Source of the DNA: Akkermansia massiliensis
GTDB taxonomy: Bacteria > Verrucomicrobiota > Verrucomicrobiia > Verrucomicrobiales > Akkermansiaceae
Direction: 5' to 3'
Length of the DNA: 64,000 bases
Assembly: GCF_023516715.1 (NCBI RefSeq)
Contig: NZ_JAMGSI010000001.1
Location: 496,001 to 560,000 of the forward strand
Positions within the stretch are counted from its first letter, which is position 1. The number at the start of each line of letters is the position of its first letter. Shown here piece by piece: positions 28,759 to 47,585 of the stretch. The position numbers and the translations under genes were made by a program. The notes below the pieces were generated by a model that saw nothing but the letters and a program-made list of their open reading frames with translations, had not been told where the DNA came from and did no database searches.

Positions 28759-30873
28759 GTGCCCTCTTCTTTTCAAGATATGTCCAAATCCGGTGACCCA
28801 TCCTCCTCTTCTCCCAAGAAGACTTCCGCCAGCAAAAAAGCTTCTGAATCCAAGGAAAAAGTAGCATCCAAGCCTGCCGCAAAAACTTCCAAAACCACTT
28901 CCAAGGCAGCCCCTGCCAAAAAAGCCCCCGCCAAGGCCGCCGCTCCGGCGGCTAAAAAGCCCGTTGCCGCCAAGCCCGCAGCGGAAAAGAAAGCCCCGGT
29001 GAAAAAGGCGTCTCCGGCCCCTGCCGCCGGGAAGGCCGCAGTACCCGCCAAAAAGGCTCCGGCAAAGGCGCCCGCGGCCGCACCGGCCAAGAAAGCCGCC
29101 GCTCCCGCCGCCAAGAAGGCTCCTGCCAAGCCGGCGGAAAAGAAACCCGCCGAAAAGAAGGCCTCCAAGCCTGCCGCTAAGGCGGAAGCTCCCAAGAAGT
29201 TGAGCGAAATCCTGGAAGAGGAACGCAAGAGGGCCGCCAGCCGCAAGGTCACGAATCCGATTGACGCCCCGGAAATCCAGGAAAAAATCCGTGAACTGAT
29301 CAAGCTCGCCAAGGAGCAGGGCTACCTGACTTTTGACGACATCAATGACTCCCTTCCCAACGACATCGTTGACCAGCAGGACTATGAGGCCATCATGGAC
29401 CGCCTGCGCAGCATGGCGTTTGACATCATTGACGCGTCCGACGTGGACAGCTACACGGACCGCACCCGCATCAACACGGAGGAAGAAGACGAGGAGGAAA
29501 AGCTTGAAGCCAAGATGGACATTCTGGACGACCCCGTCCGCATGTACCTGAAGCAGATGGGCCAGGTTTCCCTGCTCACCCGTGAAGAGGAAGTGGCCAT
29601 CTCCAAGAGGATTGAGGATGCGGAACAGAACGTCCAGCGCTGCGTGCACCGCTTCGGCTTCATTGCGAACGCCTATCTGGACGTGGCCTACCGCCTGCTG
29701 GACAACGAGGAACGCTTTGACCGCGTCATCCTTGACAAGAAGATCGACTCCCGCGAACGCTACATGAAGGGGCTGGCCCAGCTCTGCGCCCAAATCCAGC
29801 AGACCCATCAGGACGCTTCCAGCGCCTTCCGCAAGCTGTACCGCAGCAAGGAGGCCGCCAAGTCCGTGAAGGCCCGCCAGGCGGAGTTTGACAAGATCAC
29901 CGGCGTTCTGGTGAAGCTCTTCGGCCGCCTGTACTTCAAGCACAAGGTGATTGAGGATTTCTGCTCCATGATTGACGAGGCCCGCGACCGCGTGCTCCGC
30001 ATGCAGAAGAAGGTAGCCCAGGACCCGTCCAACAAGGAGCTCAAGGAACACCTTGCGGAACTGGAACTGCGCATGTGGATGACTGCGGATGAAATGGGGG
30101 AAGCCTATCAGGAGCTCCGCAAGTGGCTCCGCGAAGCCCGCCGGGCCAAGGACGAGATGGTGGAAGCCAACCTGCGCCTGGTCATTTCCATTGCCAAGAA
30201 GTACACCAACCGCGGCCTTTCCTTCCTGGACCTCATTCAGGAGGGCAACATGGGCCTGATGAAGGCGGTGGAAAAGTTCGAATACCGCCGCGGCTACAAA
30301 TTCTCCACGTATGCCACCTGGTGGATCCGCCAGGCCATCACCCGCTCCATTGCGGACCAGGCCCGCACCATCCGCATTCCCGTGCACATGATTGAAACCA
30401 TCAACAAGCTGATGCGCGTTCAGAAACAGCTGGTGCAGGAATACGGCCGTGAACCTACGCCGGAGGAAATCGCGGAGGAAATCCACCTGCCCGTGGAACG
30501 CGTGCGTTCCGTGCTGAAAATGGCCCAGCAGCCCATTTCCCTGCAAGCCCCCGTAGGGGATTCCGACGACACCTCCTTTGGTGACTTCATTGAAGACAAG
30601 GCGGCGGAAAATCCCATGGAGGAAGCCTCCTTCTCCTTCCTGAAAGAGAAAATCAAGGATGTGCTGGACACCCTTACGGACCGCGAGCGCGAGGTTATTG
30701 AACAGCGCTTCGGCCTCCGGGACGGCAGCCCCCGCACCCTGGAGGAAGTGGGGCGCCAGTTCAGCGTCACGCGGGAACGCATCCGCCAGATTGAGGCCAA
30801 GGCCCTCCGCAAGCTGCGCCATCCCACGCGCATCAGCAAGATCAAGGGATTCCTGGAAATGACGGAATCCTGA
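28759..30873 (+). CDS. rpoD: Primary sigma factor RpoD with H1-like N-terminal tail
   Basis: This is the housekeeping sigma factor (sigma70). From residue 148 it reads as a normal RpoD: region 1.1 ([18 protein letters not shown] onward), region 1.2 with [20 protein letters not shown], regions 2.1-2.4 including [17 protein letters not shown] and [14 protein letters not shown], region 3, and region 4.2 ending [19 protein letters not shown]. Ahead of it, residues 20-147 are almost only Lys, Ala, Pro and Ser, with PAKKAPAK-type repeats like a histone H1 tail. The start is GTG at 28759 or the ATG at 28780. The 704-residue length is explained by the tail. It is transcribed with or just after dnaG. 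Confidence 0.95.
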
Positions 30874-43524: not shown

Positions 43525-45765
43525 ATGGACTCAATTTACTGGATTATCATCGTAGCCCTGCTGCTTCTGGCGGCATTTGACCTGATCAACGGCGTAGCGA
43601 ATGACGCCGTCAACTTCCTCAACTCCGCCATTGGTTCCAAGGCCGCCCCCGTGCGGGTGATCCTGACCGTGGCTTCCATCGGCGTGCTGGTGGGCGCCTG
43701 CTTCTCCGGCGGCATGATGGAGGTGGCCCGCAACGGCATTTTTCACCCGAACATGTTCAGTTACCACGAAGTGATGCTGCTCTTCCTGGGGGTGATGATC
43801 AGCGAGGTGATACTCCTGGATACCTTCAATACCTTCGGCCTTCCCACGTCCACCACCGTTTCCCTGGTGTTCGGCATTCTGGGCTCCGCCGTGGCGACGG
43901 CCCTGTTCAAGATTTCCAAGCTTCACATGACGCAGTCCGTGTGGGACTTCATCAATACGGACAAGGCGTTTGAAATCGTCACCGGCATTCTCCTTTCCGT
44001 AGCCATCGCCTTCACGGTGGGCACCATCGTCATGTGGGTTTCCCGCCTCGCGTTTACGTTCAAATACCAGTCCCGCTTCAAGTGGTTCGGCTGCTTCTGG
44101 TGCGGCATCGCCATGACGGCGGTGGCCTACTTTGCCGTGTTCAAGGGCTTGAAGGAATCCACCCTGATGGAGCCTTCCTTCATTCAATACATTGACCAGA
44201 ACCTGGGCATGGCCCTGCTGGTGGCCTTCGGCGGTTTTTCCGTGCTCATGTTCCTGCTCCAGCACCTGTTCATGACGAACATCCTGCGCCTGACCGTGCT
44301 GGCCGGCACCTTCTCCCTGGCCCTGGCCTTTGCGGGCAACGACCTCGTGAACTTCATCGGCGTGTTCATGGGCGGCCTGGATTCCTTCCAGTACGCCACA
44401 GGCGTAGTGGAGGCCGGCGGCTCCGCCTCCTCCATCACCGCCATGGAATGCCTGATGCCCGGGCAGGGCGTTCCGGTGAACCATTACATTCTTTTTGCCG
44501 CCGGATGCATGATGATTTTTGCGCTGTGGTTCTCCAAGAAGGCGAAGACGGTGATCGCCACCGGCGTGGAGCTTTCCCGGCAGGGTGAAGGAGGCATTGA
44601 ACGCTTCGGCTCCGTTCCCCCCGCCCGCGCCATCGTGCGCAGCGCCATCGCGCTGGGGCGCGGGGTGAAAAAGCTTATCCCCGCCCGCATGCTGGTGCGC
44701 ATGAACCATCAGTGGGATGCTGCCCCGCAGCCACTGAACCCCAAGGACCGCGTGGCTTTTGACCTGATCCGCGCCACGGTGAACCTGACGGTGGCTTCCC
44801 TGCTGATCGCGTGGGCCACGGGCAAGCAGCTCCCCCTTTCCACCACATACGTGACGTTCATGGTAGCCATGGGTTCCTCCCTGGCGGACAAGGCGTGGGG
44901 CAGGGAAAGCGCGGTTTACCGCGTGACCGGCGTACTGACCGTAATCTCCGGCTGGTTCATGACCGGCCTGGCCGCCTTCACGCTGGCCGCCGTCATGGCG
45001 ACCGTCTTGCACTACGGGCAGGTGTACGCCATCTTCGGGCTGCTGGCCCTGGTGGTCGTCATCCTGGTGAAATCCACCATCATGCACCGCAAGCGGGAGA
45101 ACAAGCTTTCCGTAGAGCGTTTTGACCAGATTACGGAGGAAAACATTCTGGACGTGTGCAGCCACCAGGTCGTGGACAGCACGCTCAAGCTGCGGGAAAT
45201 CTACAATGACACCGTGGAAAACTTCTTCCAGGGGGACCGGAAGGCCCTGAAAGAGCTGGCGGACGCCGCGGAACGCCTGGCCCTGACCAGCAGCGAGCAC
45301 CACAAGTACGACATTCTCCCCATCCTGTACAAGATGCAGTCCCGTTCCCTGGACATGGGCTACCACTTCGTGCAGGCCCTGGAGCATTTGAACGAAGCCA
45401 CGCAGAGCCTGGCGCAGTTTTCCGAGTCCATCTTCACGTATGTGGACAATAACCACACGCCGTTCACGATTGACCAGGTGGACGACTTGAAGGAGGTGCA
45501 TACCGCTCTAATGAAGCTTCTGGATGAATACTGCAAGATGCTCCAGACGGGAACGTACATCCAGTTCGACTATACCATGGTGGCCCAGGAACAGCTCCTT
45601 CAACTGGTGGCAAAGGCCACCAAGCGCCAGATCAAGCGCGCCCAGCGCAACCAGACGCGCACCCGTTCCTCCCTCCTTTATCTGAACATGCTTAATGAAA
45701 TGAGGTTCATGGCCGTGCAGGTGCGGGCCCTGACCAATGACGAACGGAACTTCGTGGCGGCGTAA
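43525..45765 (+). CDS. PiT-family inorganic phosphate transporter with PhoU-like C-terminus
   Basis: The N-terminal ~530 residues are a PiT-type phosphate permease. Both copies of the signature are present, GVANDAVNFLNSAIGS near the start and AFAGNDLVNFIGVFMGG near residue 270, with GLPTSTTVSLVFG and LPLSTTYVTFMVAMGSS. A long cytoplasmic stretch separates the repeats. The last ~200 residues (from HRKRENKLSVERFDQIT) are helical and resemble PhoU-like domains. The fused form suggests built-in control of uptake. The gene has its own 5' region and is followed by two candidate small RNAs. Confidence 0.9.
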   Translation: MDSIYWIIIVALLLLAAFDLINGVANDAVNFLNSAIGSKAAPVRVILTVASIGVLVGACFSGGMMEVARNGIFHPNMFSYHEVMLLFLGVMISEVILLDTFNTFGLPTSTTVSLVFGILGSAVATALFKISKLHMTQSVWDFINTDKAFEIVTGILLSVAIAFTVGTIVMWVSRLAFTFKYQSRFKWFGCFWCGIAMTAVAYFAVFKGLKESTLMEPSFIQYIDQNLGMALLVAFGGFSVLMFLLQHLFMTNILRLTVLAGTFSLALAFAGNDLVNFIGVFMGGLDSFQYATGVVEAGGSASSITAMECLMPGQGVPVNHYILFAAGCMMIFALWFSKKAKTVIATGVELSRQGEGGIERFGSVPPARAIVRSAIALGRGVKKLIPARMLVRMNHQWDAAPQPLNPKDRVAFDLIRATVNLTVASLLIAWATGKQLPLSTTYVTFMVAMGSSLADKAWGRESAVYRVTGVLTVISGWFMTGLAAFTLAAVMATVLHYGQVYAIFGLLALVVVILVKSTIMHRKRENKLSVERFDQITEENILDVCSHQVVDSTLKLREIYNDTVENFFQGDRKALKELADAAERLALTSSEHHKYDILPILYKMQSRSLDMGYHFVQALEHLNEATQSLAQFSESIFTYVDNNHTPFTIDQVDDLKEVHTALMKLLDEYCKMLQTGTYIQFDYTMVAQEQLLQLVAKATKRQIKRAQRNQTRTRSSLLYLNMLNEMRFMAVQVRALTNDERNFVAA

Positions 45766-45810
45766 GGCGGCGGGGAACCGGGCTTTTTGCATGAAAAGGA
45801 AAGAAAAATC

Positions 45811-45838
45811 TTGAGCGTTTGGTTCATGCAAGTATGCT
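45811..45838 (+). promoter_or_regulatory. Promoter of the first candidate small RNA
   Basis: TTGAGC (45811-45816) and TATGCT (45833-45838) are 16 bp apart. The predicted start, about 45845, falls right before the first stem of the RNA and 80 nt after the stop of the phosphate transporter gene. Confidence 0.55.
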
Positions 45839-45904
45839 GAATGGACAGGGGTGTTCGATAAAGAAGGAACGAGAGCCTTCCGAATCACCAGGAACGACCC
45901 TGAT

Positions 45905-45922
45905 TTCATAGGTAGTTAGTTG
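45905..45922 (+). repeat. Conserved 18-mer, copy 1
   Basis: TTCATAGGTAGTTAGTTG is identical to 46105-46122, exactly 200 bp apart. It lies between the folded domain and the terminator. The sequences on either side differ, so only this element is conserved at base level. Confidence 0.9.
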
Positions 45923-45923
45923 G

Positions 45924-45958
45924 AGCGGCTGCGGAAGGAATTCCGCAGCCGCTTTTTT
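45924..45958 (+). terminator. Intrinsic terminator of small RNA copy 1
   Basis: AGCGGCTGCGGAA and TTCCGCAGCCGCT form a perfect 13-bp stem with a GGAA loop, followed by a run of T. It is among the strongest terminators in the window. Confidence 0.88.
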
Positions 45959-46104
45959 GCCCCCGCAGGAGGGGGGCGGACCTTGTGTCATACAAAAGAA
46001 GGAATGTTTGAACATATTTCCCGCCCGGCTGTCTCACCCATAACGGTTATGATCCGGATGCAGTGAAAGAGAGAGCACTTCATCCACTTAAGGACTCAAC
46101 CGTC

Positions 46105-46122
46105 TTCATAGGTAGTTAGTTG
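46105..46122 (+). repeat. Conserved 18-mer, copy 2
   Basis: Second copy of TTCATAGGTAGTTAGTTG, again directly between a folded region and a terminator hairpin. Confidence 0.9.
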
Positions 46123-46130
46123 AACAGCAG

Positions 46131-46160
46131 CCCCGGCGAAGGGATTCGCCGGGGTTTGTT
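46131..46160 (+). terminator. Intrinsic terminator of small RNA copy 2
   Basis: CCCCGGCGAA and TTCGCCGGGG form a perfect 10-bp stem with a GGGA loop followed by TTTGTT. The T-tract is interrupted, so termination may be partial. Confidence 0.7.
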
Positions 46161-46283
46161 CGTCTCCGGATGGCGCATTCCACGCCGTAAACGGCTGGAA
46201 AGAAGCGGGGAAGGAAGAATAGGAGGCGTTTTGCCGCGGGGTTTGATTGACGAGCGGGACGCATCAGGGCATAGTGGCAGGGT

Positions 46284-47585
46284 ATGAAGAGAGCGTTTTG
46301 CGTGATAGCCGGTGCATGCAGCCTGCTTGGATGGGCTCCGGCGGACGAGGCTGGCATGAAGAATGCGCTGGCGGACTGGCAAATGAGGCAGTCCGACTGG
46401 GAATCCGCATTCAAAACGGCTGAAAGCGATGAAAAAAGAGCGGAACTGATGGAGAGCCGTCCGAACGCCATTCCGGTGGCGCAGGAATTGTGGAGGCAGG
46501 TGGGGAGGGACCTTCAAAAGCCCGAGACTCAAAAACCCTACCTTCTCCCGGCTGTCATTTGGTTTCTGGACCATCCCCAGGCCGTGGCGCAGGCTTTCCC
46601 CAACGGAGACGTTGCCAGGAAAATTGTCGTGCTTTGCCTGGACTCCCTGGAAAATACCCTGTTCCGGGAAAAGGGAGCGGGAAAAGCGGCGTATGCGTTG
46701 AGCAACTCCCGCGACCTGCGCTGCCGCGTTATTCTGGAACAAATCAAGGATTACAACCAGTTTCCGGAAGACCAGGGGCTGTCCGCCCTGGGGCTGGCCA
46801 TGGTGATGAAGGAAACGACGGGAATGCTCCAGGATGACGTCAGGCTGGTGGCGGCACGCGGAAAGCTGCTGAAAGACGCCATCATCAAATGCTATGATTC
46901 CAGCTTCGGTCCCGTTCCGGTCCGGAATCTGGTGAAGGAAGAGCTGTATGAAATACGCAATCTCAACATTGGACAGACCGGGCCCAAAATAAGCCTGCCT
47001 TCCACCGCCACGGGCGCGGAAGTGACGGTCCCCTCCGGAGACAAGCCCGTGCTGCTGGTTTTCTGGGATCCCCGGGATGTGCGCTCTGTCCAGTTTTTGC
47101 AAAAGGCCGTTTCCCTACGGAAGGAATTTCCGGGCCTGACGGTCATGCCGGTGGCCCCCGGAAACAGTGAGGACGTGAAAAAGGCCCTGCTGAATTTGGA
47201 GATGGATACTCCCTCCCTGGTAGATGAAAAGGCGGCGGCGTTCAAGGATTACCGCGTGATGCTCACGCCGCGGGTGTACCTGCTGGACCCTGCGGGGAAA
47301 ATCCTGATGCGCGGCACGCCGGACATGCTGTTTGACGCGAATCTGTACGCGGTCATGGGCAAGCTGGAAGGGAAAAAGAATGGAAAGGCGGACGAGAAAA
47401 AGGCCCCGGCCGCCCCCGCTGCCGTGAAGCCGGCTCCGCTGCCGGCCAGGATCAACTCTCCGGATACGCGCATTCCCTCCGTTCCGCAGCCTGCCGCGCC
47501 CCGGCCAGCGGCCCCGCCTGCTTCCTCCGGTGTGGAGCAGCCCTCTTCTCTTTCCGCTCCCCCCTTGCGGCCCATGCCCGAATAG
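46284..47585 (+). CDS. Secreted thioredoxin-fold protein lacking the CxxC motif
   Basis: The 433-residue protein has a signal-like N-terminus (MKRAFCVIAGACSLLGWAPA) and an alpha-helical first half of unknown type. A thioredoxin/AhpC-like domain follows at about residues 235-360, with VLLVFWDPRDVRSVQFLQKA, FPGLTVMPVAPG and RVYLLDPAGKILMRG. Where thioredoxins have CxxC after the FW strand, this one reads DPRD, so it cannot do disulfide exchange. The C-terminus is a Pro/Ala-rich tail. CCA nucleotidyltransferase follows after 8 nt. Confidence 0.65.
   Translation: MKRAFCVIAGACSLLGWAPADEAGMKNALADWQMRQSDWESAFKTAESDEKRAELMESRPNAIPVAQELWRQVGRDLQKPETQKPYLLPAVIWFLDHPQAVAQAFPNGDVARKIVVLCLDSLENTLFREKGAGKAAYALSNSRDLRCRVILEQIKDYNQFPEDQGLSALGLAMVMKETTGMLQDDVRLVAARGKLLKDAIIKCYDSSFGPVPVRNLVKEELYEIRNLNIGQTGPKISLPSTATGAEVTVPSGDKPVLLVFWDPRDVRSVQFLQKAVSLRKEFPGLTVMPVAPGNSEDVKKALLNLEMDTPSLVDEKAAAFKDYRVMLTPRVYLLDPAGKILMRGTPDMLFDANLYAVMGKLEGKKNGKADEKKAPAAPAAVKPAPLPARINSPDTRIPSVPQPAAPRPAAPPASSGVEQPSSLSAPPLRPMPE

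Follow-up and report, generated by a model that had tools for sequence, protein, structure and literature searches.

Tandem genes for putative regulatory small RNAs in Akkermansia belong to a genus-wide multicopy family with partly ECF-type promoters

The window, as we call the whole stretch of 64,000 nucleotides of Akkermansia massiliensis DNA analysed here, carries two tandem RNA genes whose family is, as judged by covariance models, a real one. We lean slightly towards the view that these are two paralogous genes for trans-acting regulatory small RNAs (sRNAs), members of an Akkermansia-specific multicopy family that is partly ECF-driven and has its conserved tail as effector. An earlier reading of the sequence alone (the sequence-only reading) had proposed two tandem structured small RNAs at this site, and as far as sequence goes this is supported by the relatives, by covariation and by a negative Rfam search.

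A search of the window recovered the 18-mer TTCATAGGTAGTTAGTTG on the plus strand at 45905-45922 and 46105-46122, which bears out the earlier observation that it occurs twice at an exact distance of 200 bp; a third copy at up to three mismatches was not present within the window (mean over 100 shuffles 0.00). For both copies the fold predicts the layout proposed before, an outer stem enclosing a hairpin, followed by the free 18-mer and a terminator-like hairpin. RNA gene copy 1 spans 45845-45958 (+), with a model match at 45845-45926 and a predicted transcript end in the T run. Its outer stem P1, indicated by the fold and by covariation, has the 5' arm at 45846-45850 (+) and the partner arm at 45898-45902; the inner hairpin P2 is folded at 45863-45880 (+) with the loop AACGAGAG at 45868-45875. 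The shared tail, at 45905-45922 the most conserved block of the alignment, leads into a terminator-like hairpin at 45922-45958 (+), predicted as 15 bp running into T6, two pairs being G-U with the T run. Copy 2 was placed at 46043-46161 (+) by model match (46043-46126) and fold. Its P2 loop AAAGAGAGAG lies at 46066-46075 (+), its tail was located by word search, and its terminator-like hairpin at 46122-46161 (+) is predicted to have an 11-bp core stem and the weak tail TTTGTT, which together cover 46130-46160. The intrinsic terminators of the sequence-only reading accordingly appear as terminator-like hairpins in the folds of both copies, but a simple scan listed none in 45700-46300. Likewise, the good promoter claimed for copy 1, a sigma70-like TTGAGC-N16-TATGCT at 45811-45838 (+), is largely kept in sister species, yet it shares only 8 of 12 bases with the consensus and is absent from the promoter scan. 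With the terminator included, the fold energy is -47.6 kcal/mol for copy 1 (z -5.3) and -45.2 kcal/mol for copy 2 (z -4.2). As the z-scores without the terminator are only -1.2 and -0.7, respectively, the evidence for structure is covariation and not folding energy.

The covariance model R1, built from 19 relatives with the window copies excluded, matched four places in the host genome, namely the window copies themselves (C1:541845 and C1:542043), C1:1109458 and C1:1400864. Copy 1 scored 47.7 bits with R1 (E 6.2e-7) and 59.7 bits (E 2.8e-10) with R2, a broader model built from 96 matches; the corresponding values for copy 2 were 53.1 bits (E 4.3e-8) and 73.8 bits (E 1.4e-13). Searching for the 18-mer at up to three mismatches gave two further places in the host genome beyond the window, and matches at three mismatches outside the genus were dismissed as chance, their rates being like those of a reversed-pattern control. 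Among 142 relatives, R1 matched 72 of the 76 genomes of the window's genus, all but G020, G026, G043 and G071; the other 66 genomes, which represent 34 further genera, gave no match. Of 387 phylum genomes, 23 matched R2, and these belong to that one genus out of 197. Both searches ran with stricter filters and may have passed over weak distant relatives. The sequence-only reading had named loss of the 18-mer or of the stem pairings in relatives as grounds for abandoning its proposal; the covariance search found relatives that keep both. Matching genomes carry 1 to 6 copies (R1). In genome G028, four copies stand in tandem, and every one of them has its own TTGAAC word and terminator-like hairpin; two of the five matches in G044 are tandem identical RNAs. 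R2 adds a weak fifth host copy at C2:1159023 (E 0.006; locus L004). This locus (C2:1159023-1159104, minus strand) is a paralogue that has diverged but is retained in the A. muciniphila clade; it has the tail CATAGGTAGTTAATAG and an ECF-like promoter but lacks the GAGAG loop, and its model match is weak.

RNAalifold returned only 4 tail pairs from the first MAFFT alignment (32 rows), a shortfall that we put down to a misaligned 5' arm of the outer stem; for this reason, 19 rows were given a structure by hand, which was then tested. Alignment A1 was freed of locus L004 and near-duplicate rows, and from A2 (19 sequences, aligned by MAFFT without structure) the T-variant rows, including both window copies, were also left out. 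A3 comprised 96 rows, 93 of them distinct, fitted to the model, with matches from 84 of 107 loci. In A2, 84.4% of the cells were paired compared to 71.1% in shuffles, double-change cells numbered 58 compared to 22.5, and none of 500 shuffles attained any of the five covariation measures. The hand-set structure biases this test somewhat in its own favour, with slid and shuffled controls lying well below: versions of the structure that had been slid along the alignment dropped to 37-50% paired. In A3, we counted 579 double-change cells, compared to 181 in shuffles (attained by 0 of 500). Four of the five measures were attained by 0 of 500 shuffles and the fifth, pairs changed on both sides, by 124 of 500. 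The earlier remark that the stems differ while the layout is constant agrees with these compensating changes, which are well above shuffles in both alignments.

Compensatory changes of this kind also speak against a repeated DNA element or mobile-element remnant without RNA function, an explanation suggested by the multiple copies and by the tandem arrangement in several genomes (four in G028). In addition, terminator-like hairpins with a T run follow 91 of the 93 members, compared to 236 of 1779 controls taken at the same loci; a search of viral contigs found none with the 18-mer, and the family is present in nearly the whole genus. We regard such an origin as extremely improbable.

In the members, a promoter-like site is followed by P1 (about 8 bp) and by P2 (about 11 bp), which carries a purine loop; a linker then leads to the tail and the terminator-like hairpin. 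The predicted median length through the terminator is 124 nt. While the stems vary, two stretches hardly change. The loop motif GAGAG occurs in 91 of the 93 distinct members, and the tail words TTCATA and GGTAG in 89 and 87 of them. Allowing A or T at position 13, 53 of the 93 distinct RNAs contain the complete 18-mer, and 20 have a tail longer by one base, TTTCATAAGGTAGTAAGT. The resulting tail consensus, UUUCAUAGGUAGUWAGUUG, is nearly fixed and predicted to be single-stranded; the predicted unpaired probability averages 0.92 in the loop and 0.69 in the tail, compared to 0.38 over the whole RNA. Insertions into the tail occur (CATA-A-GGTAG, CATATATAGGTAG) and its internal spacing varies by 0-4 nt, which makes the fit with a single uninterrupted pairing site less good. 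The loop also raises the question of translation: many loops contain the Shine-Dalgarno-like AAGGAGAGAG, and an ORF of at least 10 codons starts within the folded part in 67 of 93 members, as might be expected of small-protein genes or dual-function RNAs using the loop AAGGAG as ribosome-binding site. The alignments show no start codon at a fixed position behind the loop, and the stem sequences change by compensation, and we consider a coding role very unlikely.

Upstream of most members stands TTGAAC, followed about 18 nt on by a weaker TGTC box, in which, over 88 rows, T reached 93% and C 73%, with G at 76% before them. Left out of these box counts were four rows without a TTGAAC-like word, those with short flanking sequence and those that duplicated an upstream sequence, and the share of TTGAAC is partly given by construction, the rows having been chosen by a TTGAAC-like word. 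The strict form TTGAAC-N17..19-GTC was present in 44 of 92 upstream regions compared to 0 of 1840 shuffles, and a relaxed form in 57 of 92 compared to 0.65%, the -10 box thus being variable among members. AAC at -35 and CGT at -10 are a hallmark of ECF promoters that was described early, according to an extract of PMC8103513, and the GTC box of the members appears close to this CGT. Copy 2 fits the ECF-type motif with TTGAAC-N17-GTC at 46008-46033 (+), whereas copy 1 differs, as detailed above. The promoter-like site of the member at locus L003 is also sigma70-like (TTGATT-N16-TATATT). Within the window, a sigma70-family gene at 28759-30873 (+) encodes a 704-aa protein with a Lys/Ala-rich N terminus, whose region 2 outscores all other PF04542 matches of the host genome; by eye, this is probably the primary sigma factor.

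The host genome encodes five proteins with sigma70 region 2. One of them is an ECF sigma factor closest to RpoE, encoded at C2:1138058-1138654 on the minus strand (locus L226) and scoring 132.6 bits against TIGR02939, below the cut-off of 236. Directly 3' of its stop codon stands TTGAAC-N18-GTC, and then the gene for a 173-aa protein that occupies the usual place of an anti-sigma gene; this protein gave no Pfam or NCBIfam match and by eye has a probable membrane segment. The ECF protein is present in 71 of the 76 genus genomes. We compared the best 30 of its loci, which were fetched: the motif lies 6-25 nt past the ECF stop in 16 (L229-L243 and L244), which are 16 of the first 17 by E-value, and is not found behind the ECF gene in the other 14 (L245-L258). 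The sequence between the boxes differs among the 16, but most of these loci belong to a single species complex and so do not count as independent cases. As the same motif recurs just behind the ECF gene in one clade, this RpoE-like sigma factor is the likely driver of the ECF-type members, and part of the RNA family likely belongs to its ECF regulon. In 464 kb of the host genome, a loose form of the motif occurred at 12 places with 10.6 expected, which is not above chance, so the motif alone defines no regulon. Two TTGAAC-N18-GTC sites were noted in front of other reading frames, at L137 11061 (-), 36 nt before an ORF that by eye resembles a twin-arginine-exported protein, and at L144 11228 (+), 75 nt before an ORF that by eye is pirin-like; both ORFs are possible further members of the ECF regulon.

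A dyad-like TGTCATA/TATGACA precedes the promoter in 21 of 93 members, compared to 0.3% of shuffles. It was seen in the window as TTGTGTCATACAA at 45983-45995 (+), 5' of copy 2, and at L067, L079, L070, L071, L077, L078, L084 and L085; the exact 13-mer occurs once in the 464 kb of host genome examined. Given this word enrichment among members, it may be a regulator site, possibly that of an activator. TGTCATA 5' of copy 2 resembles what we take to be half a Pho box. Control through a Pho box appears unsupported: the element has dyad form, the second repeat is missing, and the neighbours vary.

In the window, the element is flanked by a gene for a PiT-type phosphate permease (Pfam PHO4; 43525-45765, +) upstream and by a gene for an AhpC/thioredoxin-like protein (46284-47585, +; matches below Pfam cut-offs) downstream, both outside it. 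Over 96 members, the nearest ORFs, from crude ORF calls, fell into 105 BLAST clusters, with downstream ORFs on either strand. The largest cluster (22 proteins, mostly upstream) is sodium:alanine symporter-like by eye, and the second (16 proteins) is the PiT permease of the window's clade. Such varied neighbours mean that the RNA genes are not tied to one gene and make action in trans likely. A link to the phosphate transporter, raised earlier as speculation, finds no support, the relatives adjoining many different genes. The same data bear on cis-acting attenuators or riboswitches at the neighbouring genes, for example tandem riboswitches acting on the downstream thioredoxin-like gene. A folded conserved domain with a terminator-like hairpin, in tandem and 5' of a same-strand gene as in the window, would suit such elements. 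Riboswitches and cis-attenuators keep a constant leader position before related genes, whereas the nearest ORFs here vary and lie on both strands, in crude calls; moreover, each tandem copy has its own promoter-like site and terminator-like hairpin, and a look by eye did not reveal an alternative antiterminator pairing. We therefore think regulation in cis unlikely. What is found at the level of sequence, an own promoter and terminator in varied intergenic places, is what characterizes trans-encoded sRNAs.

No Rfam 15 family reached threshold within the 64-kb window, in line with the earlier statement that no named family has this element, and no tRNA was found in the window. When 45760-46290 was scanned permissively, 8 Rfam matches came up, all of them well short of threshold; CcsR1, for example, reached 19.6 of 65.3 bits, lying across the terminator on the opposite strand. 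A 6S RNA was rejected, there being no covariance match in the window and the fold consisting of short helices and a free tail. In the host genome, the models for Hfq (PF17209) and ProQ (PF04352) found no match, their controls matching in 5 of 14 and 1 of 14 known genomes, respectively; an assignment to the Hfq- or ProQ-dependent sRNAs accordingly has neither model match behind it. The CsrA model also found no match in the host genome, while its control matches elsewhere. The family resembles CsrB/CsrC in its purine-rich hairpin loop, with GGA in many Akkermansia members, but differs in having one loop per RNA, no GGA in the window copies and a host without a CsrA match. Membership in CsrB/CsrC (CsrC 11.3 of 61 bits) and a role as CsrA sponge were both rejected on the missing GGA and the absent CsrA model match.

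Qrr and LhrC are multicopy families of sibling sRNAs, and the RNAs described here are like them in being near-redundant paralogues with a common unpaired conserved element and otherwise diverged parts; they differ in being restricted to one genus and in having no Rfam match at threshold. RybB, MicA and MicL are enterobacterial sigmaE sRNAs that act with Hfq. Common to these and the Akkermansia family are AAC at -35 and, as we suppose, an RpoE-type ECF sigma factor and the place as noncoding arm of the envelope stress response, whereas the enterobacterial RNAs differ in fold and seed and in acting with Hfq, for which the host genome gave no match. A parallel comes from Fusobacterium nucleatum, which according to an extract of PMC11005410 has neither Hfq nor ProQ and in which the sigmaE-dependent FoxI and FoxJ repress envelope genes. 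A scheme of ECF-dependent sRNAs without Hfq and ProQ therefore has a precedent, at least as that extract presents it. The likeness would lie in free-standing, ECF-driven sRNAs, more than one per regulon, in a bacterium described as free of Hfq and ProQ; in the extract, the seeds of FoxI and FoxJ are C-rich and their targets shown, whereas the Akkermansia tail is not C-rich, and we claim this likeness without a relation in sequence. A search of the literature for a chromosomal sRNA family of Akkermansia found none among the matches listed, and for the PVC group as a whole 8 distinct annotated sRNAs are given in an extract of PMC9029176. Trans-encoded sibling sRNAs are hence a known kind, of which the Akkermansia family is, as far as searched, a new case.

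In the sequence-only reading, the 18-mer lies where many regulatory RNAs have their target-pairing region, next to the terminator. The complement of the tail reads CCTATGAAA, which resembles a start codon with a Lys codon after it. Three genomes hold the 10-mer ACCTATGAAA at 23 places, 9 of which are the RNA genes themselves. Of the 14 others, two start long ORFs (L117 and L129) and L123 possibly does, all in genome G015; none of the 7 places in the host genome is at an ORF start. The long ORFs of L117 and L129 begin with the 10-mer around position 1500, and the former is pseudopilin-like by eye; both are possible targets, or chance. At 326 gene starts, the tail duplex energy showed no excess over 40 shuffled tails for either tail variant, and at the strictest cut pairing was below that of the shuffles. 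These starts are crude, simple ORF calls from 464 kb, or 14% of the host genome, and hence weak evidence. Within this scope, targeting of start codons by the tail is not supported, given the few ORF-start matches and the missing energy excess.

These results bear on a protein-binding role, the main rival explanation, in which the GAGAG loop and the CAUAGGUAGU tail would titrate or hold an RNA-binding protein in the manner of CsrB, the protein being other than CsrA. Loop and tail are conserved as two distinct unpaired motifs next to freely changing stems, spacing within the tail varies by 0-4 nt, pairing at gene starts shows no excess, and each matching genome has 1 to 6 copies, all of which would suit such a decoy. 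Speaking against it, CsrA itself was not found by model in the host genome, GGA is missing from the loops AACGAGAG and AAAGAGAGAG of the window copies, and one of each motif per RNA is few for a sponge. We consider a decoy rather unlikely.

In the favoured reading as trans-acting sRNAs, the two window genes would give rise to free-standing sRNAs of about 115-125 nt, copy 1 being transcribed from its sigma70-like promoter and many other members by the RpoE-like ECF sigma factor. The RNAs would work in trans through the shared tail, their common effector site, which most likely base-pairs with mRNAs of envelope or stress genes, and Hfq, ProQ and CsrA would have no part in this. With promoters that differ between paralogues, several signals could feed into one regulatory output, and the family might be the noncoding arm of an envelope-stress response under ECF control, the role that FoxI/FoxJ have in Fusobacterium and RybB/MicA in enterobacteria. 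More tentatively, we can imagine an RNA envelope-stress network of Akkermansia's own, in which 1-6 sibling sRNAs under ECF-type and housekeeping promoters would offer tail and GAGAG loop to a chaperone or other RNA-binding partner that stands in for Hfq, ProQ and CsrA. In a gut commensal as much studied as Akkermansia, a covarying genus-wide RNA family together with its probable sigma factor gives concrete access to the post-transcriptional regulation of Verrucomicrobiota. The working of sRNAs where the models for Hfq, ProQ and CsrA match nothing can also be put to the test here.

Beyond the genomes searched with the covariance models, the 19-mer TTTCATAGGTAGTWAGTTG was found in 67 stretches among 84,980 named species genomes. 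The titles of these stretches read Akkermansia or Akkermansiaceae, bar two labelled 'uncultured bacterium' and one 'Clostridia bacterium' (L221), and the word is a DNA marker of high specificity for Akkermansia, although it does not cover the whole genus. All 67 match R2, 66 of them strongly and L159 with a partial match of 33 bases (E 0.001); many are near or identical to sequences from which R2 was built, so that the word marks the RNA gene and independence of the model is not implied. The stretch labelled Clostridia, a contig of 3.7 kb, holds a full family member at L221:1907-1990 (-) with 74.7 bits. It is probably a misbinned Akkermansia contig, transfer being the alternative.
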